Positions 540-17,389 of a stretch of DNA of 17,389 bases are shown piece after piece (within the stretch, counting starts at the first letter, position 1; the number at the start of each line of letters is the position of its first letter). Source of the stretch: Candidatus Desantisbacteria bacterium CG1_02_49_89 (GTDB taxonomy: Bacteria; Desantisbacteria; UBA1551); NCBI GenBank assembly GCA_001871075.1, contig MNUP01000146.1:1-17389 (forward strand), written 5' to 3'. The notes under the pieces are model-generated. The model ran no database searches, was not told where the DNA came from, and was given only the letters and a program-made list of their open reading frames with translations. Made by a program: the position numbers and the translations under genes.

Positions 540-758
540 TCAGGCATTATCGCTCTCCCAATCTTCCGTTGAAATGTCCGCCTGCCTTAAAATCTCCTTC
601 AGCAAAGGATACGAAATATCTCTAGAACCATGCGGATTCGGGATCCTGAGTTTAAGAGAACTCTTTATCATGAACTGGTGCTTGCCTCCGGAAAATGGAC
701 CATCAAATCCAAATCCCCTAAGTTTTGTTATGAGTTCTCTCCGTGAAATTGTTTTCAT
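540..758 (-). CDS. hicA: HicA-family mRNA interferase toxin
   Basis: This 72-aa protein is the toxin of a HicAB type II toxin-antitoxin pair. HicA toxins have a small double-stranded-RNA-binding fold and cleave mRNA in the cytoplasm until bound by HicB. Seen in the sequence: the typical start MKTISRRELITKLRGFGF, then the GGKH motif whose His27 corresponds to the catalytic histidine, then L+IPNPHG and a C-terminal helix (LLKEILRQADIS). Length is normal for the family and nothing is truncated. Its ATG overlaps the antitoxin stop in an ATGA (755-758), implying translational coupling, and no separate ribosome site is evident. The order is antitoxin first, toxin second. A strong terminator follows at 443-484. 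Confidence 0.93.
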   Translation of the reverse strand: MKTISRRELITKLRGFGFDGPFSGGKHQFMIKSSLKLRIPNPHGSRDISYPLLKEILRQADISTEDWESDNA

Positions 759-1000
759 ACCCGGATTTTTTCCTGCACGCGGATCTGCGTTTTATCAATA
801 ACCGGAAAGGGATCCCCGTCTTTAACTTTTAACAGAATCCACTCTTCTAAAACTTCGGTGAGTTCTTTTCTGCAGTCCTCTACGGTTCCGCCATTCGCCC
901 ACACGCCTTTAAACTTAGGTATCTCGGCAAACCAGGTATTATCCTCGAGTTTTTTATATTGCGCCCTTTGCAAAGCTTTTTGAATATATTCCATCAGCAT
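755..1000 (-). CDS. hicB: HicB-family antitoxin
   Basis: This 81-aa protein is the antitoxin partner that would bind and neutralise HicA. It shows the partial RNase-H-like HicB core: first strand with YIQKALQRAQYKKLEDNTWF, then AEIPKFKGVWANGGTVEDC (the E-x-P-x-x-x-G-x-W-A-x-G-x-T signature), then an amphipathic helix (KELTEVLEEWILLKV). I chose ATG 1000 because GGAGGGTAAA lies immediately upstream (1001-1010). A GTG at 1042 in frame would give 95 aa but has no such site, and an ATG at 994 is too far from it. No C-terminal ribbon-helix-helix or HTH is visible, so DNA binding and autoregulation by this short form are uncertain. Confidence 0.92.
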   Translation of the reverse strand: MLMEYIQKALQRAQYKKLEDNTWFAEIPKFKGVWANGGTVEDCRKELTEVLEEWILLKVKDGDPFPVIDKTQIRVQEKIRV

Positions 1001-1055
1001 TTTACCCTCCTGTCCGCTTTCCGCAAGATATTCCAGTTTCACAGGTTATATTTTC

Positions 1056-1369: not shown

Positions 1370-3565
1370 TTAGAATTTAAGCGCTATGCCTCCGAACACG
1401 ACTGTCCCGGGCAGGGGGTAGCCGTATTTGTCCTCAACGCGCTGGTTAAGAAGGTTGTCTATCTTGATCGAAGCGTGCAGCCACTCAACTATCTTGTAGT
1501 TGAAGTTCACGTCTACGATGTTAAGGTTGCCCACCTGCTTTACCTGCGCGGGTTCGTTCAGGGGCTGGTAAAGGTCTCTGCGATCTCCCACGAACCTGTA
1601 GTTGCACCTCAGGTTCATCCTCTTCCCCTCAAAATCAACCCCGCAGTTCGCCTTGAATTTCCCGACGTTGTACACATCCCTCTGGTTCGTGATGTCCCAG
1701 TTTTTCAGAAGCCAGGTGAAATTCGCGTAAGCCCTCACTGTCTTTGACCAGCCCCAGATGTCGCTCAAAACCACTGTTGCTTTGCCTTCTATGCCGTATG
1801 CCTCGGCGTTCACCGCGTTCTGGTATGTCAGCGTGGCGCCGGTTGTCGTTTTCTCTATCCCGCCGTTAAGAAAGGAATAGAAATATGAGATGTCCGCGTA
1901 AACCGCCGGCATGTTGAAGGTCACTCCCGCGTCGTAAACAACATTTTTCTCAGGCAGAAGATCAATGTTCCCGTGCACGGCGCGCGTGTCGCCTGTTGGC
2001 GGGGTGAACGAACCGATCTTCTGATAGGGCTCGGGAACAACAAATCCAGTGCCTGCTGACGCGTGCACCTGCGCTATGTCCGAAACCCTCCACGCCGCGG
2101 CGACCCTGGGATCGAAGCTTGACGAATACTCCTCCCCCGGAGAGTTTTTCAGAAAGTCGGTTGAAAGCGCGTCCAGCTTGTACCCGTCATACCTTATGCC
2201 CAGTGTGAGCATGAGCCTTTCGTCCATTACGCGCAGCCTGTCGCAGGCGAACACGCCGAAATTGAATTTTTCGCTGTCAGGCGCAAGCGGTGCGGTATTT
2301 GCCCCGTTTGCGCACCTGCCGTTCACGGTTTTGTCCCAGTTGTAATCCGCGCCGAAAACCACCTCGTGGTGGTCGGAAAAACGCTCCCTGTCCTGCGCGG
2401 ATATGTTCATGTAATCGGTGCGCGAATCGTTTGTTTTGTAACCTGCCTGCGACTTATAGGCTGAAACGTTGTTGCCGCCGTAAAACCTTGCCTGCCACAT
2501 GTGCTCGTCGGTCTCTGTTTTCCCTCCGTAGATCACGTCGTAGGTAAGCCTGCTCATGTCCTTTTTGCCCGGATCCTGCACCTTGTTCTCGAAATCGCCC
2601 GCGTAATTCATGTCCTGGGCGAGGAACATATCCACCCGCCAGTCGATCCTGTGGTTGTCCGTGAGCTTGAAGCCGGACCTGTAAGCGCCGTTGTAATTGG
2701 TGCAGCTGTTGCCCAGCCAAAGGCGGTTCGCAGGCGGTACCGGGTACTGCGCCTCTTCAAACGCGAGTAAAGTGAGGTCGTAATCAGTGCCCGGGAACGC
2801 CGAACCGCCGATATCCGCGAAACCCTTCCATGCCATGAACGTCCTGAACTCATAACCTACCTCGCCCTTCACTTTTTCTCTGCTGTGCTTTGTGACTATG
2901 TTGATCGCGCCTCCCATGCCGCCTGAACCGTATAAATAGGAAGCAGGCCCTTTCAAAACCTCTATCCTTTCCACATCGTCTATTAAGATAGTGGAAAGAT
3001 TTGTTGTCAGGATCTTCCTGCCGTCCACTAAAACCGCTGTGCGCCTCATGTTCGAACCGGGATTAGGCGCGAACCCCCTTATGCCTACGTCGCTTAACCC
3101 TTCGGGGTACGAAATGATGTCAGCCCCGCAGTTCCTCGCGATCGCGTCCGCTACGTTCTTCGCGTTGGTCTTCTCGATATCTTTCCTTGTTATAATGTCC
3201 ACCACCACAGGCAGGTCTGAAAGCATGCACTCTCCCCTGTTCGCTGTGACCACAGTGCCGTCCAGCCCGTTGGCTATCCTGCTTTCCTTATATAACCTTT
3301 CAGCCCTGTCAACCGGGTCCTCTTCCCCTTCATCCTGGGCCGGCACCTCGTTATACACCAGCCGCTCAACCTTGTTCCTGGGAACAGTAAACCTGCCGAA
3401 GTCTGTTGACAGCGTCACGAAGTCCGTGTCAGACGACGTGACCGTGCCTGTAAGCACCTTGCCGTCCCTCAGGTAAAGCTTTGCCGCGCAGCCGTCTGCG
3501 CTCCATACTGCCACCGCGAGAACCATTATTACTCCCGCAACTGCCCCTTTCACACCTTTTAACAT
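1370..3565 (-). CDS. TonB-dependent outer-membrane receptor with extra N-terminal small beta domain
   Basis: This 731-aa protein should import a scarce nutrient (siderophore, cobalamin or glycan; the ligand is not deducible) across the outer membrane using TonB energy. Order: signal peptide 1-28 (MLKGVKGAVAGVIMVLAVAV); a ~45-residue domain 29-73 with YLRDGKVLTGTV; an acidic linker; TonB-box-like DGTVVTAN 102-109; plug domain with DVGIRGF and ERIEVLKGPASYLYGSGGMG (199-218); 22-strand-type barrel to the end, with the family-typical final stretch NLLNQRVEDKYGYPLPG and terminal Phe. I chose ATG 3565 because CAGGAGGTTAAA precedes it and the signal peptide begins there; an upstream in-frame ATG (3661) would add 32 basic residues before the signal. 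The N-terminal domain occupies the place of the STN signalling domain of transducer receptors. It is G+C-richer by eye than the 9-17 kb genes. Confidence 0.92.
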   Translation of the reverse strand: MLKGVKGAVAGVIMVLAVAVWSADGCAAKLYLRDGKVLTGTVTSSDTDFVTLSTDFGRFTVPRNKVERLVYNEVPAQDEGEEDPVDRAERLYKESRIANGLDGTVVTANRGECMLSDLPVVVDIITRKDIEKTNAKNVADAIARNCGADIISYPEGLSDVGIRGFAPNPGSNMRRTAVLVDGRKILTTNLSTILIDDVERIEVLKGPASYLYGSGGMGGAINIVTKHSREKVKGEVGYEFRTFMAWKGFADIGGSAFPGTDYDLTLLAFEEAQYPVPPANRLWLGNSCTNYNGAYRSGFKLTDNHRIDWRVDMFLAQDMNYAGDFENKVQDPGKKDMSRLTYDVIYGGKTETDEHMWQARFYGGNNVSAYKSQAGYKTNDSRTDYMNISAQDRERFSDHHEVVFGADYNWDKTVNGRCANGANTAPLAPDSEKFNFGVFACDRLRVMDERLMLTLGIRYDGYKLDALSTDFLKNSPGEEYSSSFDPRVAAAWRVSDIAQVHASAGTGFVVPEPYQKIGSFTPPTGDTRAVHGNIDLLPEKNVVYDAGVTFNMPAVYADISYFYSFLNGGIEKTTTGATLTYQNAVNAEAYGIEGKATVVLSDIWGWSKTVRAYANFTWLLKNWDITNQRDVYNVGKFKANCGVDFEGKRMNLRCNYRFVGDRRDLYQPLNEPAQVKQVGNLNIVDVNFNYKIVEWLHASIKIDNLLNQRVEDKYGYPLPGTVVFGGIALKF

Positions 3566-3574
3566 TTTAACCTC

Positions 3575-3638
3575 CTGTTTCCCGCTGGCTCCCCTTCCTG
3601 CTTTCCGGGGAACAGCCCGCCGATCTTGCTGGGCGGGC
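3575..3638 (-). promoter_or_regulatory. GC-rich structured leader of the TonB receptor gene
   Basis: The 5' leader folds well. GCCCGCC (3615-3621) pairs with GGCGGGC (3632-3638), and CTGTTCCC near 3608-3615 can pair with GGGAAACAG (3575-3583), ending right at the ribosome site (3566-3575). This could gate translation. I do not recognise a known riboswitch: no cobalamin B12-box was found. The same stretch is open in frame with the receptor, so a coding extension is the alternative. Confidence 0.35.
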
Positions 3639-3675
3639 ATCAAATCTTTGCGGTTTTTCATTTTCTACGCCTATC

Positions 3676-3684
3676 ATTATACCA
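3676..3684 (-). promoter_or_regulatory. Extended -10 promoter of the TonB receptor gene
   Basis: TGGTATAATG on the minus strand is a full TATAAT with an extended TGn motif; no good -35 is visible 16-18 nt upstream. Transcription would begin near 3669, giving a ~100-nt leader. Confidence 0.5.
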
Positions 3685-3721
3685 CAATTTTTTAATAATA
3701 ACAGACGGTTTTCGGCCAAAC

Positions 3722-3946
3722 TTTACGTATCTTGCTATAAAAAATGATTACACAGACTTTAGAGGATGATTACACGGATTTAGCGTGAAAGGCGGGCCGG
3801 GAAGAAAACAATTACCGGGGGAAAACTGAGGAAAGAGGGAAAAAGGCAATAAAAAAAGCCCTGTTGGAAAAAACACAGGGCTCTTCGATAAAAACCGCTG
3901 AATTTGCCTATTTTACGTTTCTTGCTTACACTTTACGTTTATTGCC
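3722..3946. repeat. Dispersed TTTACGTwTyTTGCy repeats and GATTACAC repeats
   Basis: Three near-identical 15-mers, TTTACGTATCTTGCT (3722-3736), TTTACGTTTCTTGCT (3912-3926) and TTTACGTTTATTGCC (3932-3946), flank the terminator. Between them ATGATTACACAGAC and ATGATTACACGGAT occur as an imperfect direct repeat (3743-3780). No gene is seen in this stretch. Confidence 0.4.
3851..3882 (-). terminator. Rho-independent terminator of the four-gene envelope operon
   Basis: On the minus strand AGCCCTGT (3882-3875) pairs with ACAGGGCT (3864-3857) around a T-rich loop, followed immediately by TTTTTTTATTG. It separates the operon ending at 4175 from the TonB receptor gene, although about 290 nt of repeats lie in between. 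Confidence 0.85.
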
Positions 3947-3963
3947 GTAGCGCCATCCGCTCA

Positions 3964-4046
3964 GTTCTGGCGCGAAGGTCCCTGTGTTACCCGCCAATAT
4001 TCGTGGCGGGACAGGGACAAAATACCGTTCTGACTCGAAAGTCCTT
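3964..4046. repeat. Nested-hairpin repeat related to the 1112-1223 element
   Basis: GTTCTGGCGCGAAGGTCCCT (3964-3983) and GTTCTGACTCGAAAGTCCTT (4027-4046) are close copies of 1151-1170. Between them GTCCCTGT (3978-3985) pairs with ACAGGGAC (4011-4018), enclosing CCCGCCA (3990-3996) with TGGCGGG (4004-4010). The layout equals the element at 1112-1223, including a 4-nt GTTA/GTTC bulge, but the inner stem sequence differs. Confidence 0.55.
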
Positions 4047-4049
4047 TAC

Positions 4050-4146
4050 CACAGAGAACACAGAGAAATACCATTTTCCACGAATTCAACCTTTTCAACC
4101 TCTTTAACCTTTTCAACCTCTTTAACCTTTTTAACCCTTTTAACCA
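4050..4146. repeat. Degenerate tandem repeats (CACAGAGAACACAGAG; AACCTTTTCAACCTCTTT)
   Basis: CACAGAGAACACAGAG is followed by about eight 6/12-bp units of the type TTCAACC/TTTAACC up to 4146. The repeat translates to artefactual KRLKRL peptides and is not a gene. Confidence 0.65.
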
Positions 4147-4174
4147 ATACAACGATTTCTAACAAACAACATCT

Positions 4175-4849
4175 CTAGAACAGGTAAATATTATAGCCTA
4201 CTGCAAGCCAGAGATTATGAAATGAACCGTAATATAAATAGTATGAGTTTACAGGCCCGTAATAATATCCTATTTCCGCAGAGATCGCGTACGGGATCTC
4301 AGGGTCTCTGAGCACGTCCCCGCTTATAATACCCATAAATCCCGTGCTCAGGCCGTAACCGGTGTTCATAAGCACAACCCCGCCGCCAACGCTCAGATAG
4401 CGCATGTCTTCGCGCAGGAAACCCCACAAACCTTTAATAATAATTGTCGGGCCGCTTCCGTAAAGCTCGAACACGTTGTATTCAAACTGTATGGCTGCTG
4501 CCGGCGTGACCCACCATTTTACGGTCGGGCAGAGGAACATGCCGCTGTAATATCCTATCATGTCCATCTGGAAACCCACTGAAAGGGTTTTCAGCTTTTT
4601 TGCAGGCGCCTTCTCCGCCTGAAGCGGCGCCGCTTCTTCGTCCTGCGCTGGTTTAACGTACTCGATCCTGAGTATCTCTTCCTGCCTTATAAGCACTTCG
4701 CCGTAGGAAGTTTTCACCCGGATGCTCTCAGAATCCGAACCTGTGACCGAACCTGAGATCACGTCCCCTTTTTTAAGGTAGATCTCCTCAGCTGATACCG
4801 CTCCGGCAAGGGAACCCAAGATCAAAAACAGGATTACGGTCTTTTTCAT
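4175..4849 (-). CDS. Exported beta-barrel-like protein with N-terminal small beta domain (224 aa)
   Basis: Not a family I can name. Signal peptide 1-20 (MKKTVILFLILGSLAGAVSA) is followed by the shared domain 21-65 (EIYLKKGDVISGSVTGSDSE ... SYGEVLI ... ILRIEY), then an acidic Ala/Lys-rich linker, then ~140 residues of alternating aromatic strands (VKWWVTP, EIGYYYGPVNSYYLYYG) ending NIYLF. A terminal Phe after a strand suits an outer-membrane barrel, probably small (about 8 strands, an inference). It is a clear paralogue of the next gene upstream (WW-TP, GLWGF/GFWGF, EIGYY, IYLF). Start ATG 4849 follows GAGGAAG; an upstream in-frame start would add 21 residues before the signal peptide. It is the last gene of the operon, 13 nt after the previous stop, and ends with TAG. 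Confidence 0.8.
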   Translation of the reverse strand: MKKTVILFLILGSLAGAVSAEEIYLKKGDVISGSVTGSDSESIRVKTSYGEVLIRQEEILRIEYVKPAQDEEAAPLQAEKAPAKKLKTLSVGFQMDMIGYYSGMFLCPTVKWWVTPAAAIQFEYNVFELYGSGPTIIIKGLWGFLREDMRYLSVGGGVVLMNTGYGLSTGFMGIISGDVLRDPEIPYAISAEIGYYYGPVNSYYLYYGSFHNLWLAVGYNIYLF

Positions 4850-4862
4850 GTCGGTTTCTTCC

Positions 4863-5573
4863 TCAGAACAGGTATATTTCCATTCCGTAGTGGAAATAAA
4901 AACCCTTGTCATCCAGATTCATGGGGTTAAAGTAATAGCCTATCTCAAGCGACACAGGCATGGGATATTCATAGATATCGGTTTGCGGCGCCCAGTAAGT
5001 ATCGTAACGCGATCTGGGATAGAAGAACTCTATGCCGAACAGCCCGACAAGCCCGGGCACCCACGCGTTCGCTGGGTTATTGATGATCATCCCCCCGCCC
5101 AGGTACAGGTTATACCTCTTATTGCGGCTGAAACCCCAGAAACCCTCCAGGTTTATCAGGGGAGAGACCGGCCCGTACCAGCTCAGGATGGGGAAACCCA
5201 CCCCTGCCCTGAACCCTATATCAGGAGTGATCCACCACTTAATGTTTCCGCCTATATCAAAGAACGAAAAGAAAGAGGCGTCCTCGTGGAACCCGATGGA
5301 GAAGACCTTTGTTGAAATATCAGCTTCGTGGAAAACCGGGCCTCTCGGCGCTTCCTCCTTCTTTTCCTCGCGCTTCTGCTTTACGTATTCTATGTCCTTG
5401 ATCTCGCTCATCTTGACCAGCACTTCCCCGTATGAGGTTTTGACCTTCATAATCTCGGTGTCCGAACCGGTTATTGTCCCGCTTATGACAGTGCCATCCT
5501 TGAGATATACCTCCTCGGCGCAAACCGGCAGGGATATAAGCAGGATCATAATTAAAAACACGGTCTTTTTCAT
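4863..5573 (-). CDS. Exported beta-barrel-like protein with N-terminal small beta domain (236 aa)
   Basis: Family unnamed. Signal peptide 1-19 (MKKTVFLIMILLISLPVCA) is followed by the shared domain 20-64 (EVYLKDGTVISGTITGSDTE ... SYGEVLVKMSEIKDIEYVK), a charged KQKREEKKEE linker, and then a strand-rich region to a terminal Phe (GMEIYLF). Features shared with the neighbouring 224-aa protein are IKWWITPDIGF, a G[LF]WGF motif, a glycine-rich strand (YLGGGMIINN) and LEIGYYF. The most likely location is the outer membrane. Its ATG lies 1 nt after the stop of the propeller gene and no strong ribosome site precedes it, so it is probably translated by coupling. The two paralogues look like a tandem duplication that diverged. 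Confidence 0.8.
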   Translation of the reverse strand: MKKTVFLIMILLISLPVCAEEVYLKDGTVISGTITGSDTEIMKVKTSYGEVLVKMSEIKDIEYVKQKREEKKEEAPRGPVFHEADISTKVFSIGFHEDASFFSFFDIGGNIKWWITPDIGFRAGVGFPILSWYGPVSPLINLEGFWGFSRNKRYNLYLGGGMIINNPANAWVPGLVGLFGIEFFYPRSRYDTYWAPQTDIYEYPMPVSLEIGYYFNPMNLDDKGFYFHYGMEIYLF

Positions 5574-5574
5574 G

Positions 5575-6630
5575 TTATTTGTAGCCGTCAGTCCTTATGA
5601 CGGCTATATGCCCCCTTGAATAAGTATAGGCTGACACGTAAACATAATTTCCGTCCGGGGAAACCGCGATCCCTTTCGGGCTTCCGCTGAAACTTATGGT
5701 CTTGACCACGGCGTTGCCGGGTATGCTTACAATATAGAGCGTGCCTGAATAAGAGGAGTAGTAATCTTCCGGGCAGCTTGCGATATAGGCATACCTGCCG
5801 CTTGGCGCGACAGCCACTCTCGGGTAATCGCCCACAGGTATGGTTTTTATCACGGATGTGTCGGAAGTGCGTATCACGGACACGTTTTCGGAATAGTAGT
5901 TAGCCGCGTAAACGTATTGTCCGTCAGGGGTCACCGCTATACCTGTCGGCTCTTCTCCCACAGTGACCGTGCCGGCGATAGTCCCGTCAGAAACACGGAC
6001 TATGTCCACTCTGCCAGGCCAGCGATACGTGCTGGTAACGTATAAGTAAGCGCCGTCCGGGCTGAACGCCAGGGCCTGGGGTTCGCTGTCCACCGCGATG
6101 GTACTGGTAACGCTGTTATCGGATGTCCGGATAATAGAAACGTCATCGGAAAATTCGTTCGCGGTATATACGTATTTCCCGTCCGGAGACACTGCAAGTC
6201 CTTTTGGCGCTGAGCCGACGATCACTGTTTTAACCACTGTGTTGTCAGAAACGCGTATAACAGAGACCGTATTGTTGTAACCATAGGAATGGGACACATA
6301 AACATAATTCCCGTCAGGGGTTATCGCTATCTGCTCAGGATTGCTCCCTACCGCTATGGTAGCGGCTATCGCGTTGTCACCGGCGCGGACCGCGTAAACT
6401 TTGTCATTATAATCGTCGGCCACGTATATATACTGCCCGTCCGGGGTGACTGCCAGGCCTTCAAGATATTCCCCGACCGATATCAGCTCGCTCGCGTAAG
6501 CCGTTTCCTTCATTTTGCTTATTTTGTCCCTGAACGCGTCCACGATACCCACGAAAAATCCGCTTTCAGCCGGCGCGGACAGGATAAAAAGCGCGATCAA
6601 GACCAATACCGCTGTTCTCAGTTCCTTCAT
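5575..6630 (-). CDS. Exported seven-bladed YVTN-family beta-propeller protein
   Basis: Signal peptide about 1-22 is followed by a short helical stretch (DAFRDKISKMKE) and seven repeats of roughly 43 residues. Each carries the YVTN signature [TS]PDGxYxYV[AS] near residues 62, 104, 148, 190, 234, 276 and 324, followed by V.VIR.SD..V..TI.VG. The last repeat lacks its final TIxVG strand, which the N-terminal ELISVG (48-53) can supply, a usual velcro closure. Such propellers are secreted or envelope proteins that serve as binding platforms; there is no sign of catalytic residues. Start ATG overlaps the upstream stop (ATGA, 6627-6630). The placement between small barrel proteins suggests it works with them in the envelope. 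The blades are also visible as DNA repeats of about 130 bp. Confidence 0.9.
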   Translation of the reverse strand: MKELRTAVLVLIALFILSAPAESGFFVGIVDAFRDKISKMKETAYASELISVGEYLEGLAVTPDGQYIYVADDYNDKVYAVRAGDNAIAATIAVGSNPEQIAITPDGNYVYVSHSYGYNNTVSVIRVSDNTVVKTVIVGSAPKGLAVSPDGKYVYTANEFSDDVSIIRTSDNSVTSTIAVDSEPQALAFSPDGAYLYVTSTYRWPGRVDIVRVSDGTIAGTVTVGEEPTGIAVTPDGQYVYAANYYSENVSVIRTSDTSVIKTIPVGDYPRVAVAPSGRYAYIASCPEDYYSSYSGTLYIVSIPGNAVVKTISFSGSPKGIAVSPDGNYVYVSAYTYSRGHIAVIRTDGYK

Positions 6631-7475
6631 TTCTTCTTGCCCTTGGGGAAGTAATAGTTAAACCCGACGTTGAGGATGAAATCAAGCCCTCCGGCGTAAC
6701 CTCCGGGAGGGTCAAAAGCCATCACCCAGGCAGGGCCGATGTCCGCGGTGAATGAAATGCTTTTCGTAAGCCTGTATTCCACTCCGGCAAAGCCCTCGAA
6801 CGCAAGCCCCCAGCCGTCGATATCGTCCACGCTGAAGAAAGAAACGTCGACCTCCCCGCCGAAAAGCAGGAAGAACGCCTGGTGCAAAGGCAGGTTGTAG
6901 TAGAACCTGAACCCCGCGACCCCGATGCCCGGCCCTGCCGCTCCCCTTATTTCAATGGCCCAGGGCGATTCTGTCCAGTACTTGAAAGTGATCCCCGGGT
7001 AGAACAGCCCGATCCCCCACCTGTCCAGCATCGGGTATATAGGGCTTGTTTCCGGTATTATTTCCTTAGCCGGTTCAACGGGAGCCGGCTGCGCCGCGGT
7101 CTCCTCTTCCTTCGCGATCCTCGCGATGATATCCTTCCTGAAGCTGGTCTCGCCGGCAACGGTCCTCACCCATATCGTATCGGTGTCAAACTTTAATATC
7201 GTGCACCTGACAAGAGAGCCGTTTAAAAAGTAGATCACGTCCTTACCGCCTGCGTCCGAGGCATATTCGATCTTATCGATATATTCAATGCGCTCGATCT
7301 TCTCCCTGGGTATCACAATTTCGCCTGCCGTGTTCTCAACGGTTACGCCGTCCGCGCCGTAGCTTTTGACGGTTCCCGTGGCAACGGTCCCGTCAGTCAG
7401 GTATACCTGGTGGGCTGACGCGGCGCAGGCGGACAGGACCACACCCAAAATTATCATCAACATTTTTCGTTTCAT
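6627..7475 (-). CDS. Exported protein with two tandem small beta domains and a barrel-like C-terminus (282 aa)
   Basis: The signal sequence MKRKMLMIILGVVLSACAAS could be cut after ASA (residue 21) or, because LSAC fits a lipobox, be lipidated at Cys17. The shared domain occurs twice: 22-67 (QVYLTDGTVATGTV ... AGEIVIPREKIERIEY) and a diverged copy 79-123 (DVIYFLNGSLVRCTILKFDT ... AGETSF). A Pro/Glu/Ala linker follows, then about 130 residues of Gly/aromatic strands (WAIEIRGAAGPGIGVAGFRF, VGFNYYF) and a lysine tail KGKKK. Role unknown; an envelope protein is inferred. ATG 7475 was chosen because the signal peptide starts there; 24 further in-frame codons upstream are just translated tandem repeat. 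It is the first gene of the operon, with the next gene overlapping by 4 nt. Confidence 0.8.
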   Translation of the reverse strand: MKRKMLMIILGVVLSACAASAHQVYLTDGTVATGTVKSYGADGVTVENTAGEIVIPREKIERIEYIDKIEYASDAGGKDVIYFLNGSLVRCTILKFDTDTIWVRTVAGETSFRKDIIARIAKEEETAAQPAPVEPAKEIIPETSPIYPMLDRWGIGLFYPGITFKYWTESPWAIEIRGAAGPGIGVAGFRFYYNLPLHQAFFLLFGGEVDVSFFSVDDIDGWGLAFEGFAGVEYRLTKSISFTADIGPAWVMAFDPPGGYAGGLDFILNVGFNYYFPKGKKK

Positions 7476-7499: not shown

Positions 7500-7710
7500 A
7501 AACCACGGAGGCACAGAGTAATCTTTTGGTTTTCTGACAACTGACAACTCACAACTGATAACTGCCCTTTAACCACGAATTTACACGAATTTTCACGAAT
7601 GTCAACTTTGCAAACTTTGTAAACTTTGTAAACTGTAAAAACTATGTAAACTTTGTAAACTTATAAGCTTGGAACTTTGACACGCTGATACGTTGACACG
7701 TTGATACGCT
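7500..7710. repeat. Run of several degenerate tandem repeat families
   Basis: In succession: ACCACGGAGGCACAGAG; CTGACAACTGACAACTCAC with AACTGATAACTG (7536-7562); ACCACGAATTTACACGAAT with TTTCACGAAT (7572-7600); AAACTTTGTAAACTTTGTAA and variants (7611-7661); GACACGCTGATACGTTGACA with CGTTGATACG (7679-7708). Each family has its own 7-20 bp period. No gene is present in 7476-7827. Confidence 0.6.
7578..7605 (-). promoter_or_regulatory. Weak candidate promoter of the envelope operon
   Basis: TTGACA (7605-7600) and TAAATT (7583-7578) are separated by 16 nt on the minus strand, about 100 nt before the 282-aa protein. Both boxes arise partly from tandem-repeat sequence, so this may be fortuitous. 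Confidence 0.3.
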
Positions 7711-7827: not shown

Positions 7828-8691
7828 CTATGGACTGCTGACAATGGACTTCAGCAGGCTTCGATAGTCCCTTGGCGACATCTTCTCCAAGTCCTTGAAC
7901 ATCCTGTTGAAATGCGTGATGTTGTCGTAACCCACGCTTGTGCCTATGTCCGTTATCTTTGAATCCGTTGTGGAAAGCAGTTCCTTCGCCTTGTCCATGC
8001 GGGTGCGGGTCAGGTATTCTATGAACGTGAAGCCGGTCTCCTTCTTGAACGTCCTGCTGAAATGGTAGATACTGAGGTTCACCGTTTTCGCGGTCTCGTC
8101 AAGGCTGATGTCGTCAAAGTAATTTTCCTGTATGAACCTTTCAACCTTTTCAACGTGCGGGCTCTTTGCGGCTCTTGCCGCCCCCAGTTTCAGTATCTCC
8201 TCCGCCTTACCCAGGTAGCTGAAGAACATGTGCCCCAGTTTCAGGTATTCCTTAAGCCTTATCTCAGGCACCACGGAAACGTCAAAATACGCGTCTTCAA
8301 GTTTTTTAAGGTCTATCTTCATCCCCTTCACCTTCTCTTTGACCCGCGCGAAGCTCTCCTGGGAAGGCGGGGCTGTAAGGCAGGAGCGGAAATAGACGTT
8401 GGTTATGAACCTGTCCCCGATGAATATTGGGAACGCTATGTCGGTCAGGCCGAACTGGCACTCGTAGTAATAAGGGCCCTGGTTCTCGCGGGCGATTGAC
8501 CCGCCTTTCGCGTCTGACACAAGGCACCCCCTTACACCCTGCGGAGCCGTGTGCATTAATTCGCAGAACGTGTTGAGCTTCCACCCCCGCTTCACGAACT
8601 CCCTGTATATGTTCTCGGATTTTATAGCGTCCAGCATGCCTTCGAACACCGCGGCTATCGTGCCGGGAAAATCCTGCCACAGCTGTTCCAT
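7828..8691 (-). CDS. AraC-family transcriptional regulator with N-terminal PocR sensory domain
   Basis: This 287-aa cytoplasmic DNA-binding protein has an N-terminal PocR-type ligand domain (about 10-160) and a C-terminal AraC double HTH (about 183-281). PocR features seen: FCELMH (Cys43), GCLVSD (Cys56), YYYECQFGLTDIAFPIFIGD (Cys78) with the C-x2-GL-D-x-A-PI pattern. AraC features: ISLDETAKTVNLSIYHFSRT, FKKETG, F..Y....R...A.ELL, ITDIGTSVGYDNITHFNRMF, SPRDYR. In other bacteria PocR senses small metabolites such as 1,2-propanediol; the ligand here is unknown. ATG 8691 follows GGGAGGCAGAG. It lies upstream of, and in the same direction as, the envelope operon, which is the natural regulatory target. 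Its last few codons and TAG stop come from a degenerate AGTCCA repeat. Confidence 0.93.
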   Translation of the reverse strand: MEQLWQDFPGTIAAVFEGMLDAIKSENIYREFVKRGWKLNTFCELMHTAPQGVRGCLVSDAKGGSIARENQGPYYYECQFGLTDIAFPIFIGDRFITNVYFRSCLTAPPSQESFARVKEKVKGMKIDLKKLEDAYFDVSVVPEIRLKEYLKLGHMFFSYLGKAEEILKLGAARAAKSPHVEKVERFIQENYFDDISLDETAKTVNLSIYHFSRTFKKETGFTFIEYLTRTRMDKAKELLSTTDSKITDIGTSVGYDNITHFNRMFKDLEKMSPRDYRSLLKSIVSSP

Positions 8692-9140: not shown

Positions 9141-9818
9141 TTACTTACTTGCCTTTTCTCCATAATGCCCTGCGATCTCCTCGGGAGAAAGCACGCGGTT
9201 ATAGATACGCACTTCATCAATCATCCCGATAAATCCTGCGCCGATAAGGACCGGATTATCAGCAGGGCTTGGTTCCATTTTTCTGATAGATTCCTTTTTT
9301 TTGCCATTGACCCATAACTGCAGTTTCTCCCCTGTCCATATCCCCACAATATGGGACCATTTCTACAGAGCGGGCACAGAGTTTGAAACCCTGGGCTCCC
9401 AGCTCCCGTCTGAATAAATGAGCAGAGAGAATTGGTTCTTTTCCTGGGGCGGGTCAACGCGCAACTGGTATTCATCCTGCTTGTTTACAATAAACCGCCA
9501 GCCTTCAATTTCAGCCGGGCAGACCCATGCCTCGATGGTAATCCCTTTTGCCAGCCTTAAATCTCCGGCATCAGGAATCTCGACGCTGCTGTTCCCGTCA
9601 AATAAAAGCGCCTTTCCGGATTTGCCGTCCACCCACCCGGCACCCGCAATCTGGCCGTCATATCCCTTTCCTGAAGAGTCCCTGGCAACTTCACCGTCAC
9701 CTTCGTCAAACTTCCACCAGCCCACAAGACCCTTCTCCTTTTCAGCTGCCAGACACCAGACTCCGGACACCAGACAGCAGACAACCAGAACCGCTACCAG
9801 ACCGAATTCCTTTTTCAT
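9141..9818 (-). pseudogene. Secreted LamG/concanavalin-A-like lectin protein, interrupted by in-frame TAG
   Basis: A 225-residue frame codes a signal peptide (MKKEFGLVAVLVVCCLVSGV) followed by one LamG domain: GLVGWWKFDEGDGEVARDSS, GKALLFDGNSSVEIPD, ITIEAWVCP, then WSHIVGIWTGEKLQLWVNGK, and the end motif GMIDEVRIYNRVLSPEEIAG. A TAG at 9363-9365 splits it just before WSHIVG, in the middle of the fold, with the reading frame unchanged on both sides. ATG 9818 follows GGAGGGTAAA. Genuine genes here end in TAG (for example 4175, 7828, 12765), so the codon is very probably a stop. LamG domains bind glycans or proteins outside the cell. It closely resembles the second LamG of the large protein at 12765. 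Alternatives: sequencing or assembly error, or a shortened product. Confidence 0.75.
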
Positions 9819-9887
9819 TTTACCCTCCAAATGCAGATTTAGATTAAGATTAAAGTTAATTGTAAAAAAGAATTTGATCTCTCTCGG

Positions 9888-9930: not shown

Positions 9931-12756
9931 TTATTTTTCTACCAGCCGGATATAGTCTACTTCTGCAGTAACTCCTTCTTCGCCGGTGGGGTCAAATCGT
10001 AAATCCGTGATGAGGTCTGACAACCAAAGAGAGTTTTTCCCAACATTGAGTTTATACTCATGAAATTCTCCGTCTCCTTTAATCCTAAAACCGAAACTCA
10101 TGGGTTCATTATAATTCTGAGACGACTTTGTAAGCCAGAATATTTGCCCCTGGGAATTTTTGCTTATTTTGACCCGTATGACAATAAACGGAAATTTTTC
10201 TCCGTTGATTTCTAACTCAGAACTTCTAAACGCAGAATCATTCGTGGCAGATGTGCCCTTTAACACTCCGCCTGCCACCCCTGCGTCATTTAAATTCATA
10301 AGGGGGTTCCAGCCCTCTCCGTTCCCGTCCTCATTGAATTCCCAGGCAATCATCCGGCTAATGTCCTGCCACTGTTTTACTGAAAGACCTGCATCCTGAG
10401 GAATAACATCCTGGTGGCCCTTTGATTCAGTGGTAAACACTTCTCTTATTGCATCCAGGTATCCAAATCCAAATTCTCTGTGCGGCTCTATAAAATCTCC
10501 TTCGCCAAACTCATTCCATGCTTCTGCCAGAACAATATTAAGTTTATCTTTTCCAACAGGGTGTTTGTCTGTAAATCCCTTTGCCAATTCAAGCATCTTT
10601 TTGAATTTATCCGGATGTTTACCCGTGCGCGTGAATGCCTGTTCCCCGTGCCAGGGACGGGCATCCCAGCCCGGGTCAGTAACAGCAATATAATCCAGCA
10701 ATCCATACCCCGCAATCTCTTCCCAGATGGCATTATAGCCCTGTATTGCCAGATCATAGGGAGAAGTCTTTTCTCCTGAATTCGCACCTGCAGACGGATA
10801 GTTATAACCTGTAACCGCGTCATAGCCCTCTTCCTTGAGCGCCTCAACTGTTCCCTTTCCGGGATATGCACAAGCTGCCAAGTACAACCCGCTAAAACCT
10901 TCTTTCCTGCATAACTCTCTCATTTTTTCAAAAGCAATCTTTGCCTTCTCAACTCCCATATCTTTGGTTATCCTGTCAGGGCTGAAAATAATTACCACAG
11001 GTTTATTGTCTATCTTCAGATATTCCGGCTCTTTGAAGTAATTCTTCAGCCAGTAATTGGTAACCTTGAGCAAGTCCTGTTCTGAGGAAGTTTTGTCCGG
11101 ATTGTGGTTGCACCAGCAGATGCAGAACATAAGGTATTTGCGATATCGGGATTTTAAATACCCGTTATTTAAAGCATGGTCAAGCTGCCTTGCGCCTCTG
11201 TCCCAGTACCAGTCATATGCAAAAAAGGAAATTCCGTGTTCCACAGCCCATTTTATATGCCAGTCTGCGATGTCAGGCTCTCCTTCCTGATACCAGCCCA
11301 GCACGGGTTTGCGTTCAGGAAAGTTTTTTATGGCAGCCCATCCTTTATGAGCGCCCTGCTTCCACCCCGGGAAGTAGTAGGCGCCAACCAGGTAATTTGA
11401 TTTCGCAGGTTTTGGTTCCGGCACATATGGTTTGCCTTCAACAATTCCAGGAGAAACAGAAATCTTCGCTGTGAAAGAAAGAACAGCGGATGCAGAGACA
11501 GGCGTAAAATTCTTTCCCGTAATTTCGAGCCTTGCAATATCCTGAATTGGATTCGGACCTTGAATGAACCAGCGAATTTCTTCTTTTTTCTCCAGAACTT
11601 TAATTTTTTTGGTGGTCCTTTCTCCCTCCATAACCTGAACTCCTGCCGGAAGCAACACAGAAAGGTTGATTTCCTCACCGGGTTCTCCGCCGATGTTTTC
11701 CAGCACACAGATCAGGTCTGCATCCTGTCCTGCCCTGTTGATTGCTTCCTCTAAACCGAAATACATCACTTTCATCTCTGCCGGACCCTTTGGTTTTTCT
11801 GCAATTCTGACGGACTTCAGTTCAGCCCTTGCCCCATTTGCATCAGAAGGACGCAGGGCTATGGCAATAACTCTTTTATCCCATTTGGGCGCAGAACTTA
11901 TGTTTATAGCGTAAACATGGAACTGTTCGTCTGCAATAAGGTCAAAAACCCTTCTCTCCATTCCGGGCTCTCCTTCTCTCATCCAGCGGATCTCTCCTTT
12001 TGTGCCTTTATCCACCTTCATTATAAATGAAACCCAGGCAAAATCCGCGATGTTTTTGATTTCTATGCGCGGAGAAAGAATCAATGGCTCTTTCCCTGCA
12101 GCCACAATTTTGAGCGCGCCTTCTGCAGCATCTATCTTAGCATCCTGCCATACTTTCCAGCCCTGCAGGTTCTTTTCTTTGTCAAATGTCCAGTCAGGCA
12201 AAACAGATTCCCTGTCTTCCTTTAGAAGTTTTTCACCCAGCGTGAGCACCGGTTTATCCTCTTGATTTTTCACAGGTCCGATTCCTATCCAGTCAATGAA
12301 TAAATTTCTGTCTGATGCCGCTGCTGCATAATCATTTATAAAAGAAATGCTTATAATGTGCTCCCCTCTGTTAAGAGTAAAAGCATCTGTGAAATAGACT
12401 TTTGGCTTGCCCATATCTTCTTTCACCTCCCACTCAAAACTCCCCGCATCACCCCCGTCAATCTCAACAACCATTTTCGGCCATTTTTCTTCTGTATCCG
12501 GGTCTAATGCAGGTGTTCCTGCTGACTGCACTGCAACTTTATAAAGTCCTTTTTCTTTCACATTGCACTTCACAGTCAAACTGGCATTAGCCCAGAACGC
12601 CCACCAGCCGGGGATATTACCCATTCCTCCGGTGTGTTCCAATGCCTGGTCCTCAGCCTCAACGATCCCCGGGACCTCTATCTGTGCATGGCAGACCACA
12701 AAAAACACACAGCTAAACATCACAACAACCAATCCGCCGATTAAAACTCTTTTCAC
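9931..12756 (-). CDS. Secreted GH99/WbsX-like glycan-active protein with three carbohydrate-binding-like modules
   Basis: A 941-aa exported protein. Signal peptide 1-24; jelly-roll module 27-162 resembling calcium-dependent carbohydrate-binding modules (EAED, GWWAFWANASL, LFIDWIGIG); module 189-320 (W.FD ... GW ... FHVYAINI ... W); Ig-like linker 327-450; GH99/WbsX-like TIM-barrel 455-775 (GAYYFPGW, EPDIADWHIKWAVEHGISFF, AYDWYW, AWNEFGEGDFIEPH); then a second copy of the 189-320 type module, about 800-941 (WEFNEDGNGEGW, FHEYKLNV, VDYIRLVEK). Glu749 and Glu752 form the E-x-x-E pair typical of GH99 endo-mannosidases. WbsX members are often labelled glycosyltransferases, but secretion and binding modules argue for a hydrolase; the substrate is unknown. 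GTG start 12756 sits 8 nt after the upstream stop behind a G-rich ribosome site, so it is coupled to the large surface protein. Confidence 0.85.
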   Translation of the reverse strand: MKRVLIGGLVVVMFSCVFFVVCHAQIEVPGIVEAEDQALEHTGGMGNIPGWWAFWANASLTVKCNVKEKGLYKVAVQSAGTPALDPDTEEKWPKMVVEIDGGDAGSFEWEVKEDMGKPKVYFTDAFTLNRGEHIISISFINDYAAAASDRNLFIDWIGIGPVKNQEDKPVLTLGEKLLKEDRESVLPDWTFDKEKNLQGWKVWQDAKIDAAEGALKIVAAGKEPLILSPRIEIKNIADFAWVSFIMKVDKGTKGEIRWMREGEPGMERRVFDLIADEQFHVYAINISSAPKWDKRVIAIALRPSDANGARAELKSVRIAEKPKGPAEMKVMYFGLEEAINRAGQDADLICVLENIGGEPGEEINLSVLLPAGVQVMEGERTTKKIKVLEKKEEIRWFIQGPNPIQDIARLEITGKNFTPVSASAVLSFTAKISVSPGIVEGKPYVPEPKPAKSNYLVGAYYFPGWKQGAHKGWAAIKNFPERKPVLGWYQEGEPDIADWHIKWAVEHGISFFAYDWYWDRGARQLDHALNNGYLKSRYRKYLMFCICWCNHNPDKTSSEQDLLKVTNYWLKNYFKEPEYLKIDNKPVVIIFSPDRITKDMGVEKAKIAFEKMRELCRKEGFSGLYLAACAYPGKGTVEALKEEGYDAVTGYNYPSAGANSGEKTSPYDLAIQGYNAIWEEIAGYGLLDYIAVTDPGWDARPWHGEQAFTRTGKHPDKFKKMLELAKGFTDKHPVGKDKLNIVLAEAWNEFGEGDFIEPHREFGFGYLDAIREVFTTESKGHQDVIPQDAGLSVKQWQDISRMIAWEFNEDGNGEGWNPLMNLNDAGVAGGVLKGTSATNDSAFRSSELEINGEKFPFIVIRVKISKNSQGQIFWLTKSSQNYNEPMSFGFRIKGDGEFHEYKLNVGKNSLWLSDLITDLRFDPTGEEGVTAEVDYIRLVEK

Positions 12757-12764
12757 TGGCCCCC

Positions 12765-15700
12765 CTATTTAACCCGCACTCTAAATTTAATACTCCTCTG
12801 TTCGTTGACGCCCAGCGTGTTTATTCCCCATCGCAAACCTTTAATGTTTTCCGCGCCGGCAGGCGGACTGCTGTTCCACGGCTCCCATATTGCGCCGGCC
12901 GGGTCAGCAGCATATGTCCAGGAATCAGCAATTGTTTCACTATCCATTGAGAGGAATGCCACCGGAGTGTATACCGCCGTGTTGAATGTTATGGTATCAG
13001 TGATTATGAGATTTATGGCAGTTTCTCCTCCAACATTTGAAATCTTCAGCCTGAATTCTAAAGTATCACCGGCAGAGAGTAAAACAATTGTTTGCGTATC
13101 CTGCCCGGTGAGCTGTTCGTTCCTGACAAATTTTTCAAGGAGGATAACAGGCATCACGATTGTTTCCTTCTGACTGCTGATAATATCAGAAGAAGTTATG
13201 GTAATGACAGGTGCTCCACCGCGGCTGTCCTTATAGAAAAATACTATGGAGCCGGAAGAGAACCTGATGATACTTGTGTCAGACCAGGATTCCCTGCCCA
13301 GTGAAAATCTGCCTTTTGAAGAAGTTGATTTCAGAGACGCTGTTTCATTCCAGCCTGTATCTGTATTGCCCGATTCATCCCTGGCAACAACTGCAATAGT
13401 ATCAGACGCCTGTATTGAAGAAATCACAAACGGCGGAGAAAGGAATTGCAGCTTGGAAGCAGTAATGGTTTCCTGCTGTGCCGCGGGAGTCAGCCCTGAA
13501 TGGGTAATTGTAATAACCGGGCTGCCGATAAGGTAGTCCCTGTAATAGAATGCGGCAGAGCCGTTTGTCAGGGTTACTGTATTTATATTTACCCAGTTCT
13601 GTGTCAGCGAGAAAGAACCGCTCTCAGAAGAAGTCAAGAGATTAGCAGCCTCATTGAAATTGCTGTCAACATTACCAACTCCATCCTCAGCAACAACAGT
13701 AACAGGAACTGCCTGGCCGGATTTAGCCTTAAAAGGAGAATTTGTAATTTTCAGCTGAGTAGCCAATATCCTGAAGGTAATCGGTTTCTGCCTTCCTTCA
13801 TAACTTGCCACAATCTCATCCGCAGGCAATGCTTTATTATACAACCTGACTTCATCAATAACGCCGGGCCAGCTTGTTCCTATATTAACCGGATTTGACG
13901 TTGAATCAATTGAGCCCGTCCTTGTGGAAGACGCCTTGAATTCTCCGTTAACATATATCTTAAGGTTGCCTGCTCCTGCATTTTTGTCATAGGTTGTTAC
14001 CACGTGATACCAGATTCCTGCACCCGGCTGTATCCCGCTGTTTACCCTTGGCTCCCAGCCTGCGCCGATAACCACAAAAGAGGTGAAGTTTCCACTCTCT
14101 GTGGGCGGAAGAGGGTCGCGGCGGAGCTGGAAACTGTTGCTCTTATCAATGTACATCAGCCAGGTGCCTTCACCCACCCGTTTTAACCACAGCTCCGCTG
14201 TCAACTCATCACTAAAATGCAGAGAATCAGTATCAGGGATTGTTACATAATTCCCGGTCCCGGTGAATTCAAGCCCGGAACCATAATATCCGCTGGCCCA
14301 GGCAGGACTACCCGTAAGAGAACCGTTGTTTTTATATGGAGAGACATCATAAGCCGCAGTTCCTTCTCCCTCATCAAAATTCCACCCGCCTGCGAGAAGA
14401 TTATCTTTGAAGATTGTATTCTTTATGGTTTTTGAGCTGTCGCCTAAAAGATAAGCTGTAATGGTGTCCTTTCCCGGGAGGGTTGAAACAAGCAGGCCCG
14501 TGCACCACCCGTTTGTATCGGTTACCTGCCCGTTTGGATAAGTAATCGTGTCATATGCATCATCCGCTGTTCCCTTGCGGCTTGTAGTGATTACCACTGT
14601 TTTGCCGGGAACAGGATTGCGGCACCTGTCTGTTACAACTGCTATCACGGGACAGGGGGTGATTCCGTCTATACCCGCATTGCGGGAACCAACTATAATA
14701 TACGAAGCGGTTTCGCTGAAATCACCGAGGTTGACATACTGAGCCTGGGTTGTTTCAGACAAAGACCCGCTTCTGACTGTGAGCGTATAAGAACCGGGTT
14801 TTATATCTTTGAAGAAAACGTATGTCTCGCCGCTTACAAACCTTAAGGTCAGAGAAGAAGCCCAGTTCTCTCCGCCGGGCGCGGCAGAAAACCTGCCGGT
14901 TGGCGATGAGGACGAAAATTCGCAATCTTCATTGTAGTTATCTGCCTTTGAACCGTCAGACCACTGCGCCTGGACCACTATTGACTCAGATGCAGAACCG
15001 GCAACAATCGTTCTGGGGGGAGTAAGAAACGCAATTTTTGACGCTGCTGCCCAGGTAATGGGTTTTTTTCTTCTTCCTTCATAATCTGCCCTGACTTCCT
15101 CTGCGGACAGGGCCTTGTTGTATATGCGCACTCCATCCAGCAATCCGGGGAAGTTATACCCGCCGCCTCCGCCATAGGAACCTATGTAAAGGTCCCCGGA
15201 AGAAGGATTTATGCCCCCTATCCTGTCCAGAGTTGCTGTTTCAACTCCGTTAACATACAGGCGCAGTTTTGAACCGTCACTTGTTCCCACCACATGGGTC
15301 CACTGGTAAAGCGGCACAGCGTATGGACTGGTAAAGTAATGGCTCCATGGAGTCAGGGGGACATGCCATGCCACATACCCGTCCCCGCCAAAGCCCAGAC
15401 GATAACCCTGGGCTCCATCTGTCACTTTATTTATCATCCAGGAATCGCCTGTTGTGCCTGTGCGATAAAACCACAGTTCAACTGAAATCTGCTGGGGGTC
15501 AAGGGAATCAGTGTCAGGGACTGAAACATAGTCTGTGGAACCGTTAAAAGAAAGGGAAGAACCGTATTTGCCTTGAGCCCAGGTCGGACCATAGAGCCTT
15601 CCGCTGTTCGCAGGAGAACCGGCAATGTCTCCGCCTGCCTCATCAAAGTCCCACCTTCCAGCAGGAGCCGAATTAAAGAATGTGAGTTCAATGATCTTTC

Positions 15701-17389
15701 CCGGTTCTCCGGTTACTGTTGCAGTAATCGTGTCTTTTCCTTCAAGCGAAGAAACTACTATGCCTGTTGCCATTCCGTTTTCGTCTGTGGGCTGGGAAGG
15801 CTGGGTTATTGTATCGCAGGTGTCCTCAGAAGTGCCCTTGCGGCTTGTAGTAATTAAAACAGTTGCACCCGGGATTGGATTGTAATAGATATCCGTTACA
15901 ACGACTCTTATTTTACACTGGTTCTGCCCGTCTCCAATGGGATTACGGGGACTAATTACAATATATGAAGCAGTTTCAGAGAATACGCCTGGCGTTATTA
16001 ACTGAACTTGTGTTGTATCCGGTAATCCAGGACTTTTTACTGTAATTATGGATGGGCCGGCTTTCGTGCCTTTGTAATAAACATAGGTTTCGCCATCAAC
16101 TACCCTGAGTGAAATCGAAGAAGACCATGTTTCACCTGTCTGGGTATCGCAGAATAAACCGTTTGATGACAGGAATTGGCAATTTGCGTTAAAATTAGCA
16201 GCTTTTGAACCATCAGCCATTTGCGCCTGCACGCATATGGACTCCGATACACTGCCGGCAACCAGTGTCCTTGCTGGAGTGATAATCGCAAGTTTGTCTG
16301 CACTGGTGAATTCAATTGTAGGGACCCTGCTGGCGCGCACGCAGTCAAACCATGCAGTGCCCACCCCACCCTGCATGCACCTGTATTCCATCTGGTATGC
16401 ATCTGCAGGGACACTGAACAGTGCGCTCAAAAGTGTCCAATCAGAATTGCCAGAGAGTCCGCTGGAATTGACATCTCCCCTGACAATACCGCCGTCCCAC
16501 CAGATTATCCTTATCACGGCGCTGCCGCTGGACAGGTCAGTCTTTGTATACTGGGTGAAACGATATGCACTGCCGGGGATAACAGACTTTTTAACAGAAG
16601 GGGCAGCAAAATTGTCTGCTGCGCTGGTACACGTATGCCTGATTGCCTTAACTCCTGAATATGGTGTGTCACTTACCAATGACCAGGAACCTGAATTTGC
16701 GGCAAAACTCCAATCATCTGGTCCAGACCCTTTTTCAAACGACGGATTAGGAAGAACGTTCTCAGTTATGGTCACGCCCTCGGAGAAGGCAACTACTGTA
16801 TCCTGGCCTGCCACAGAAGAAACTATCGTTCCCGTGCTTTGCCCGTTTGAATCTGTCAGTCCCGGCTGGAAGATTGTATCTGCAGTAGAACCGCGGGATG
16901 ACACAATAGTAACCTGCCTGCCGGAGAGGGGATTCCCGATGTTATCCCTGATAAAAATCGCAACCTTGCACTGGTTAACTCCGTTTGCCGGAAGTGAGCC
17001 TGTGCCGGGAGAAACGATACGCAGATAAGAAGCAGTCTCTGAAACAGGAATACTGGCAAGGACTTCCACAATTTGCGTGTCTGAAATCAAGCCCTGTCTG
17101 GACACAGTAATCACAGGACTGTCTGCTTCAGTATCGGAATAATAGAAAATTCCGGAACCCGCACCAAGCGTAATTGAGCTGTCGTTTGATGTGCTCCAGT
17201 TAAATTTATCTGTTGAAAACCGTCCTGATACCGAAGAAGATAAGAGACCGACAGTCTCATTGAATGTCCCAGCCTTTTCCCCGAAATTGTCCAGTACCTC
17301 AATGGCAATTGACTCGGAAGCAGAACCGGTAAAAACCGTCCTGGGGGGAGTGATGATTGCAATCTCAACTGGTCCGACAAATTCAATAG
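12765..17389 (-). CDS. Giant modular surface protein (Ig-like, invasin Big_1-like, CBM and LamG repeats), N-terminus beyond window
   Basis: The frame stays open to the window edge, giving about 1540 visible residues. Visible order in nucleotides: Ig-like module (17386-17046); Big_1-like (17045-16764); CBM_4_9-like jelly roll (16763-16314; LPNPSFEKGSGPDDW); Ig-like (16301-15981); Big_1-like (15980-15663); LamG (15662-15078); Ig-like (15044-14721); Big_1-like (14720-14391); LamG (14390-13794); two Ig-like modules (13769-13155); a DUF11-like C-terminal domain (13148-12768). Big_1-like motifs are SETASYIVI, VVTDxxxNPIPGxxVxITTSRKGT, TDxNGxxTG and GKDTITA. Ig-like ones are [LI]AxxTPxRTxVAGS.SES and F[FY]KD. 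No sorting signal or anchor is seen at the C-terminus. Probably an adhesin or glycan-binding matrix protein. It ends in TAG 8 nt before the GH99-like gene. Confidence 0.88.
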   Translation of the reverse strand, partial: IEFVGPVEIAIITPPRTVFTGSASESIAIEVLDNFGEKAGTFNETVGLLSSSVSGRFSTDKFNWSTSNDSSITLGAGSGIFYYSDTEADSPVITVSRQGLISDTQIVEVLASIPVSETASYLRIVSPGTGSLPANGVNQCKVAIFIRDNIGNPLSGRQVTIVSSRGSTADTIFQPGLTDSNGQSTGTIVSSVAGQDTVVAFSEGVTITENVLPNPSFEKGSGPDDWSFAANSGSWSLVSDTPYSGVKAIRHTCTSAADNFAAPSVKKSVIPGSAYRFTQYTKTDLSSGSAVIRIIWWDGGIVRGDVNSSGLSGNSDWTLLSALFSVPADAYQMEYRCMQGGVGTAWFDCVRASRVPTIEFTSADKLAIITPARTLVAGSVSESICVQAQMADGSKAANFNANCQFLSSNGLFCDTQTGETWSSSISLRVVDGETYVYYKGTKAGPSIITVKSPGLPDTTQVQLITPGVFSETASYIVISPRNPIGDGQNQCKIRVVVTDIYYNPIPGATVLITTSRKGTSEDTCDTITQPSQPTDENGMATGIVVSSLEGKDTITATVTGEPGKIIELTFFNSAPAGRWDFDEAGGDIAGSPANSGRLYGPTWAQGKYGSSLSFNGSTDYVSVPDTDSLDPQQISVELWFYRTGTTGDSWMINKVTDGAQGYRLGFGGDGYVAWHVPLTPWSHYFTSPYAVPLYQWTHVVGTSDGSKLRLYVNGVETATLDRIGGINPSSGDLYIGSYGGGGGYNFPGLLDGVRIYNKALSAEEVRADYEGRRKKPITWAAASKIAFLTPPRTIVAGSASESIVVQAQWSDGSKADNYNEDCEFSSSSPTGRFSAAPGGENWASSLTLRFVSGETYVFFKDIKPGSYTLTVRSGSLSETTQAQYVNLGDFSETASYIIVGSRNAGIDGITPCPVIAVVTDRCRNPVPGKTVVITTSRKGTADDAYDTITYPNGQVTDTNGWCTGLLVSTLPGKDTITAYLLGDSSKTIKNTIFKDNLLAGGWNFDEGEGTAAYDVSPYKNNGSLTGSPAWASGYYGSGLEFTGTGNYVTIPDTDSLHFSDELTAELWLKRVGEGTWLMYIDKSNSFQLRRDPLPPTESGNFTSFVVIGAGWEPRVNSGIQPGAGIWYHVVTTYDKNAGAGNLKIYVNGEFKASSTRTGSIDSTSNPVNIGTSWPGVIDEVRLYNKALPADEIVASYEGRQKPITFRILATQLKITNSPFKAKSGQAVPVTVVAEDGVGNVDSNFNEAANLLTSSESGSFSLTQNWVNINTVTLTNGSAAFYYRDYLIGSPVITITHSGLTPAAQQETITASKLQFLSPPFVISSIQASDTIAVVARDESGNTDTGWNETASLKSTSSKGRFSLGRESWSDTSIIRFSSGSIVFFYKDSRGGAPVITITSSDIISSQKETIVMPVILLEKFVRNEQLTGQDTQTIVLLSAGDTLEFRLKISNVGGETAINLIITDTITFNTAVYTPVAFLSMDSETIADSWTYAADPAGAIWEPWNSSPPAGAENIKGLRWGINTLGVNEQRSIKFRVRVK

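Follow-up and report, generated by a model that had tools for sequence, protein, structure and literature searches.

How should one understand a domain of about 45 residues that recurs, directly after the signal peptide, on a TonB-dependent receptor and on several small proteins encoded beside it? The case comes from Candidatus Desantisbacteria bacterium CG1_02_49_89 (a genome of 2.48 Mb, 93.5% complete), on a stretch of 17,389 nucleotides analysed as a whole (the window). The genes concerned lie on the minus strand, transcribed in the order AraC/PocR-type regulator, E, D, C, B and TonB receptor A:

7828-8691, minus strand: AraC-family regulator with PocR sensory domain, upstream (PocR 6e-22, HTH_18 2e-23)
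7578-7605, minus strand: promoter-like site ahead of E-D-C-B, TTGACA-16-TAAATT, a consensus match only
6627-7475, minus strand: gene E, 282 aa; signal peptide, two domain copies and a probable small barrel
5575-6630, minus strand: gene D, exported YVTN beta-propeller of 351 aa (TIGR02276, 4.5e-42)
4863-5573, minus strand: gene C, 236 aa; signal peptide, domain, disordered linker and predicted 8-stranded barrel
4175-4849, minus strand: gene B, 224 aa; signal peptide, domain and small outer-membrane barrel with C-terminal Phe
3853-3886, minus strand: intrinsic terminator at the B/A boundary (12-bp stem, T-tract, -17.7 kcal/mol, z -5.6)
1370-3565, minus strand: gene A, TonB-dependent receptor of 731 aa, AGGAGG ahead of the ATG at 3565; signal peptide, domain with predicted Hfq fold (residues 28-74), acidic linker, TonB-box-like DGTVVTANRG, plug, barrel

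Genes E and D share a 4-nt ATGA overlap, D and C are 1 nt apart, and C and B 13 nt apart; because of this spacing the four look like one operon, of which the AraC/PocR regulator is a possible controller. D carries no copy of the domain, though it lies inside the operon. The strong intrinsic terminator ahead of A argues that the receptor gene is its own transcription unit, apart from E-D-C-B. A is a TonB-dependent receptor by its Pfam matches (PF07715 plug, 1e-22; PF00593 barrel, 1.5e-32; both above cut-offs); Rfam gave no match at the gathering threshold, hence no cobalamin or other riboswitch that would explain it. The barrel of E is called from a single weak Pfam match (OMP_b-brl, 0.39).

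The remainder of the window holds further features. At 540-1042 (minus strand), a HicA-like 72-aa ORF, recognised by eye, overlaps a UPF0150/HicB-like ORF (Pfam 1.2e-29) behind a perfect TTGACA-17-TATAAT promoter; the pair is probably a HicAB toxin-antitoxin. At 9221-9830 (minus strand), a LamG ORF (9363-9830) stops before its LamG domain is complete and shares sequence with an ORF in another frame (9221-9475); the gene may be broken, or the assembly may be wrong here. The contig end cuts an adhesin-like protein of very large size (12765-17387, minus strand), which carries Big_1, Invasin_D3 and LamG domains; adjoining it is a WbsX/GH99-like protein with a CBM60-type module (9931-12756, minus strand), and the two may form a surface glycan locus.

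The original prediction held that one exported domain is used five times in this cluster. Homology, as opposed to a matched pattern, was tested by leaving each copy out in turn: an HMM built from four copies was used to seek the fifth in all reading frames of the window (Z = 10,000), where chance matches have i-E values of 15 or more. The copies and their recovery are:

7272-7412, minus strand: copy E1, from residue 22 (i-E 1e-11)
7101-7241, minus strand: copy E2, divergent, from residue 79 (i-E 0.028; in register)
5376-5516, minus strand: copy C, from residue 20 (i-E 1e-16)
4649-4789, minus strand: copy B, from residue 21 (i-E 3e-17)
3344-3484, minus strand: copy A, from residue 28 (i-E 2e-9)

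By profile comparison, homology is certain for A, B, C and E1, and the prediction stands to that extent; E2 is probably a fifth copy: its own score is weak, but it lies in register, and proteins of other genomes also have the domain in tandem. The five segments align over 47 columns without gaps, with Y4, G8 and G30 invariant, and share 26-66% identity with copy C. The common I.RIEY ending that had been described does not extend to all of them: A has VERLVY, and E2 has IARIAK. A five-copy profile found no sixth copy in the whole genome (next match E = 0.37); within this genome, the domain is confined to the cluster. That the four proteins have different C-termini was overstated: B and C are paralogous over their full length (42% identity over 231 aa; barrels alone, E = 2e-15), so there are three kinds, not four. 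The barrels of E and C showed no significant similarity (0.018, one comparison), and no relatives of full-length C were found in named genomes.

The prediction had also guessed at a small, Sm-like beta-barrel, and structural modelling supports the guess. An AlphaFold2 model of C residues 20-72, made with 17 natural sequences, has a mean pLDDT of about 91 (model residues 1-40), small-barrel strand order and a short helical turn ahead of the last strand; its six strand segments, with one bent strand counted twice, correspond to the five-stranded, strongly bent barrel of Sm and Hfq proteins. Foldseek against the PDB gave Hfq in all of the best 50 rows listed (TM 0.68-0.76 by query length, mostly 0.6-1.0 Å rmsd over 40-43 columns); the top match has probability 1.00 and an E-value of 0.012, E-values being weak here because the domain is so short. 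VIA-align Z-values (about 7 for Hfq; 8.2, at a poor rmsd of 5.2 Å, for the Kustd1711 nose domain discussed below) agree with Foldseek and are not decisive alone. Searched against PDB sequences, the domain profile matched LSm proteins over the Sm1 motif (EDC3 2.4e-4, Sm D1 0.0026). In full-length C, the domain is modelled at a pLDDT of about 95, and a disordered linker connects it to eight long strands at moderate confidence (pLDDT mostly 65-79); the best PDB matches of this barrel by Foldseek are OprF and OmpA, suggesting that C continues into an eight-stranded barrel of OmpA/OprF type.

The likeness to Hfq and LSm proteins lies in the fold (TM 0.75 by query length, rmsd 0.9 over 43 columns) and in an Sm1-like LKNG..I.G.I motif. 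The window's domain differs in being exported, in having no N-terminal helix in the model, and in showing no sign of RNA binding. Only 3 of 37 aligned copies match the Hfq families PF17209 and TIGR02383, below their cut-offs (best 0.0059 in Pfam, 0.0045 in NCBIfam). Binding of RNA, as in Hfq, would follow the shared fold; it is hardly credible for an exported domain with net charge near zero or negative, whose solved exported relative is acidic (PMC11791136).

That relative is the nose domain of Kustd1711, an anammox cytochrome (PDB 7zs0): exported, recognised as Hfq-like and acidic, and assigned neither a function nor a known partner (PMC11791136). It was the only relevant work found in the literature on exported Sm-like or Hfq-like domains. 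The sequence relation is distant and runs through two insertions of TIGR02603-type cytochromes, L086 and L091, which match the domain profile at i-E 1e-3; L086 matches Kustd1711 across the insertion at 2e-24. Unlike the window's copies, the nose domain is inserted inside a cytochrome c domain rather than N-terminal, and has no barrel; full-length A, B, C and E have no cytochrome c match, and their copies come after a signal peptide, so that they are not TIGR02603/CxxCH insertions.

A closer family exists in NCBIfam as NF047433 (Lepto_7_Nterm, the N-terminal domain of Leptospira LA_0442/LA_0875), which pairs a signal peptide with the same domain; the model's name refers to Leptospira alone, and neither fold nor breadth is described in it. 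It matched 34 of 37 aligned copies at E ≤ 0.1 (best 5e-9). In B, C and E (1.5e-9, 1.2e-7 and 4e-6) it aligns from model position 2 or 3 to 60-62 of 63, including the signal peptide region. The curated cut-off is 43 bits; none of the four proteins of the cluster that carry the domain reaches it (B 37.4, C 31.3, E 26.4, A 21.8), and a protein of a sister genome, L015, passes it (45.3); the window's copies are, on these alignments, homologous to NF047433 and formally non-members. Pfam gave no match above cut-off for the domain, in the full proteins or in 37 copies. YgdI/YgdR (PF06004, PDB 2jn0), another small exported beta domain, aligns end to end by hhalign at a probability of only 3.6% (E 0.012) and is absent from the fold matches listed; it is a lipoprotein and is not fused.

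The domain is thus of a known but under-described kind, and the ‘undescribed system’ for which it was first put forward as a candidate is not supported: the family has an NCBIfam model and a solved distant relative (PMC11791136), and roughly one sampled genome in six has it, on proteins unrelated to one another. A ten-copy profile found it in 50 of 290 genomes at E ≤ 1e-3 (43 of 256 among good-quality genomes). Named matches fall in Desantisbacteria, Cloacimonetes, Acidobacteria, Gamma- and Zetaproteobacteria, Elusimicrobia and Omnitrophota; the 11 named loci come from a search with a five-row alignment led by a consensus sequence. A signal-like hydrophobic stretch stands just ahead of the first copy in 61 of 68 domain proteins, by a simple count rather than a signal-peptide predictor. 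What these proteins contain besides the domain is varied: TPR in at least 8 of 62 proteins; DUF481 in three; FecR, SLT, F5/8C, PDZ and T2SSE in two each; CsgG, kinase, trypsin and SBP_bac_5 in single cases. Tandem copies occur in E and at loci L017, L026 and L030. A sister genome of the same order has three copies, each on a different contig.

Some carriers deserve separate mention. At L063 (577-3411, minus strand), and also at L024, a single frame encodes the domain, TPR-like repeats and, after them, a GspE/PilB-type ATPase (T2SSE best 3e-125), an odd fusion given that such ATPases are cytoplasmic. At L051 (1710-2096), a short zetaproteobacterial protein has two apparent tandem copies, the second seen by eye, and no clear signal peptide; a cytoplasmic version of the domain may exist. 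At L057 (536-3448, genome G025), a Ser/Thr kinase has the domain in its probable extracytoplasmic part, and the gene adjoins a second one with the domain.

One way to account for the recurrence is the assembly signal that the original prediction offered; a general signal for outer-membrane assembly is unlikely, since the sister genome's TonB receptors do without the domain and barrels are a minority among the carriers elsewhere. The other suggestion of that prediction, a common envelope partner, may hold. We favour, tentatively and ahead of the other readings, a periplasmic module for docking or self-association, which would unite the products of the cluster or link them to a shared periplasmic partner. 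Exported and placed directly after the signal peptide, the Hfq/Sm-fold domain would sit in the periplasm beneath the outer-membrane proteins, ahead of the TonB box in A and of the small barrels in B, C and E, with the flexible linker as a tether. Docking or self-association would proceed by pairing of edge strands, as in Sm rings; the cluster products would thereby be gathered together or brought to a common partner. The periplasmic placement is suggested by the order of parts (the domain precedes the TonB-box-like motif and plug in A, and the eight-stranded barrel in C) and from the signal-like stretch in most carriers.

Docking is suggested, too, by the conservation pattern. Over 78 copies, the conserved positions (L5 0.87, G8 0.97, G13 0.92, G30 0.84, and alternating hydrophobics) look structural, and there is no invariant polar cluster resembling an active site, which makes an enzyme or a narrow ligand site unlikely. 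The domain's fusion partners are unrelated to one another and in many cases of an interaction type (TPR, PDZ, CsgG, FecR), and it occurs in tandem; in the operon, E, D, C and B follow one another with a short overlap and short gaps. Against docking stand the divergence of the copies, the moderate confidence of the predicted C barrel and the want of a known partner for the Kustd1711 nose domain (PMC11791136). The sister genome's scattered copies also mean that the clustering here may be local duplication.

A second perspective supposes that the domain binds a non-protein ligand of the envelope, whether peptidoglycan, the phosphate of lipid A or some other anion, and thereby holds exported proteins in place or sets their orientation. 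Two basic positions, K/R6 (0.83) and K/R36 (0.62), are semi-conserved and speak for it; K/R36 falls in the alignment at the place of Hfq K56. It is likewise in favour of this view that the carriers include DUF481 barrels, proteins of the FecR kind and lytic transglycosylases. However, the role of K6, which stands before a beta-turn, may be structural, and Sm D1 shares the LKNG motif; net charge is -3 to +1 for the window's copies, with a family mean of -0.7; and no known wall-binding family matched in Pfam (37 copies). Ligand binding is, on balance, rather unlikely. Third, and a little less likely again, the domain may be a portable unit of folding or spacing after the signal peptide, one that has no specific partner and owes its local spread to duplication and fusion. 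The paralogy of B and C fits this, as do copies elsewhere on functionally unrelated proteins and the high variability of sequence outside the core; a partnerless spacer would not lead one to expect a conserved core kept across many phyla, or that all five copies found in the genome should fall in one cluster. We infer the order docking or self-association, envelope ligand through the basic positions, partnerless spacer.

What is unusual about the locus is the fusion to a TonB receptor, where the domain stands between the signal peptide and the TonB-box-like motif. No PF07715 gene other than A was found in this genome, although TonB and ExbD genes are present; in the two TonB receptors of the sister genome, the TonB box directly follows the signal peptide. 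In a search of 280 genomes with A's N-terminal 198 aa, from domain to plug, A's own was the one match among those listed that covered the domain, and rare fusions may have escaped the search; the six other receptors that were checked are without it. The position recalls the STN and carboxypeptidase-regulatory-like domains of TonB receptors, placed ahead of the TonB box; these have another fold and no Pfam match in A. A role in signalling or gating, like that of STN in FecA-type transducers, would suit this position and the presence of TonB and ExbD; it is improbable, as A has no Pfam STN match up to E = 1, the domain is also on non-receptor proteins, and no FecI/FecR gene lies within the window.

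Should the module dock as we suggest, the domains of A, B, C and E might pair into a mixed Sm-like assembly coupling the TonB receptor to the small outer-membrane barrels. This stronger form is a long shot; if true, it would be a use of an exported Sm ring not known before. The receptor fusion offers a convenient place to ask what the domain does, with transport as the read-out. The domain is missing from Pfam and present in NCBIfam under a Leptospira name only; naming it would join scattered DUF481, FecR, TPR and barrel proteins, together with the cytochrome nose domains, under a single question that experiments can address, namely what an Sm fold in the periplasm binds.
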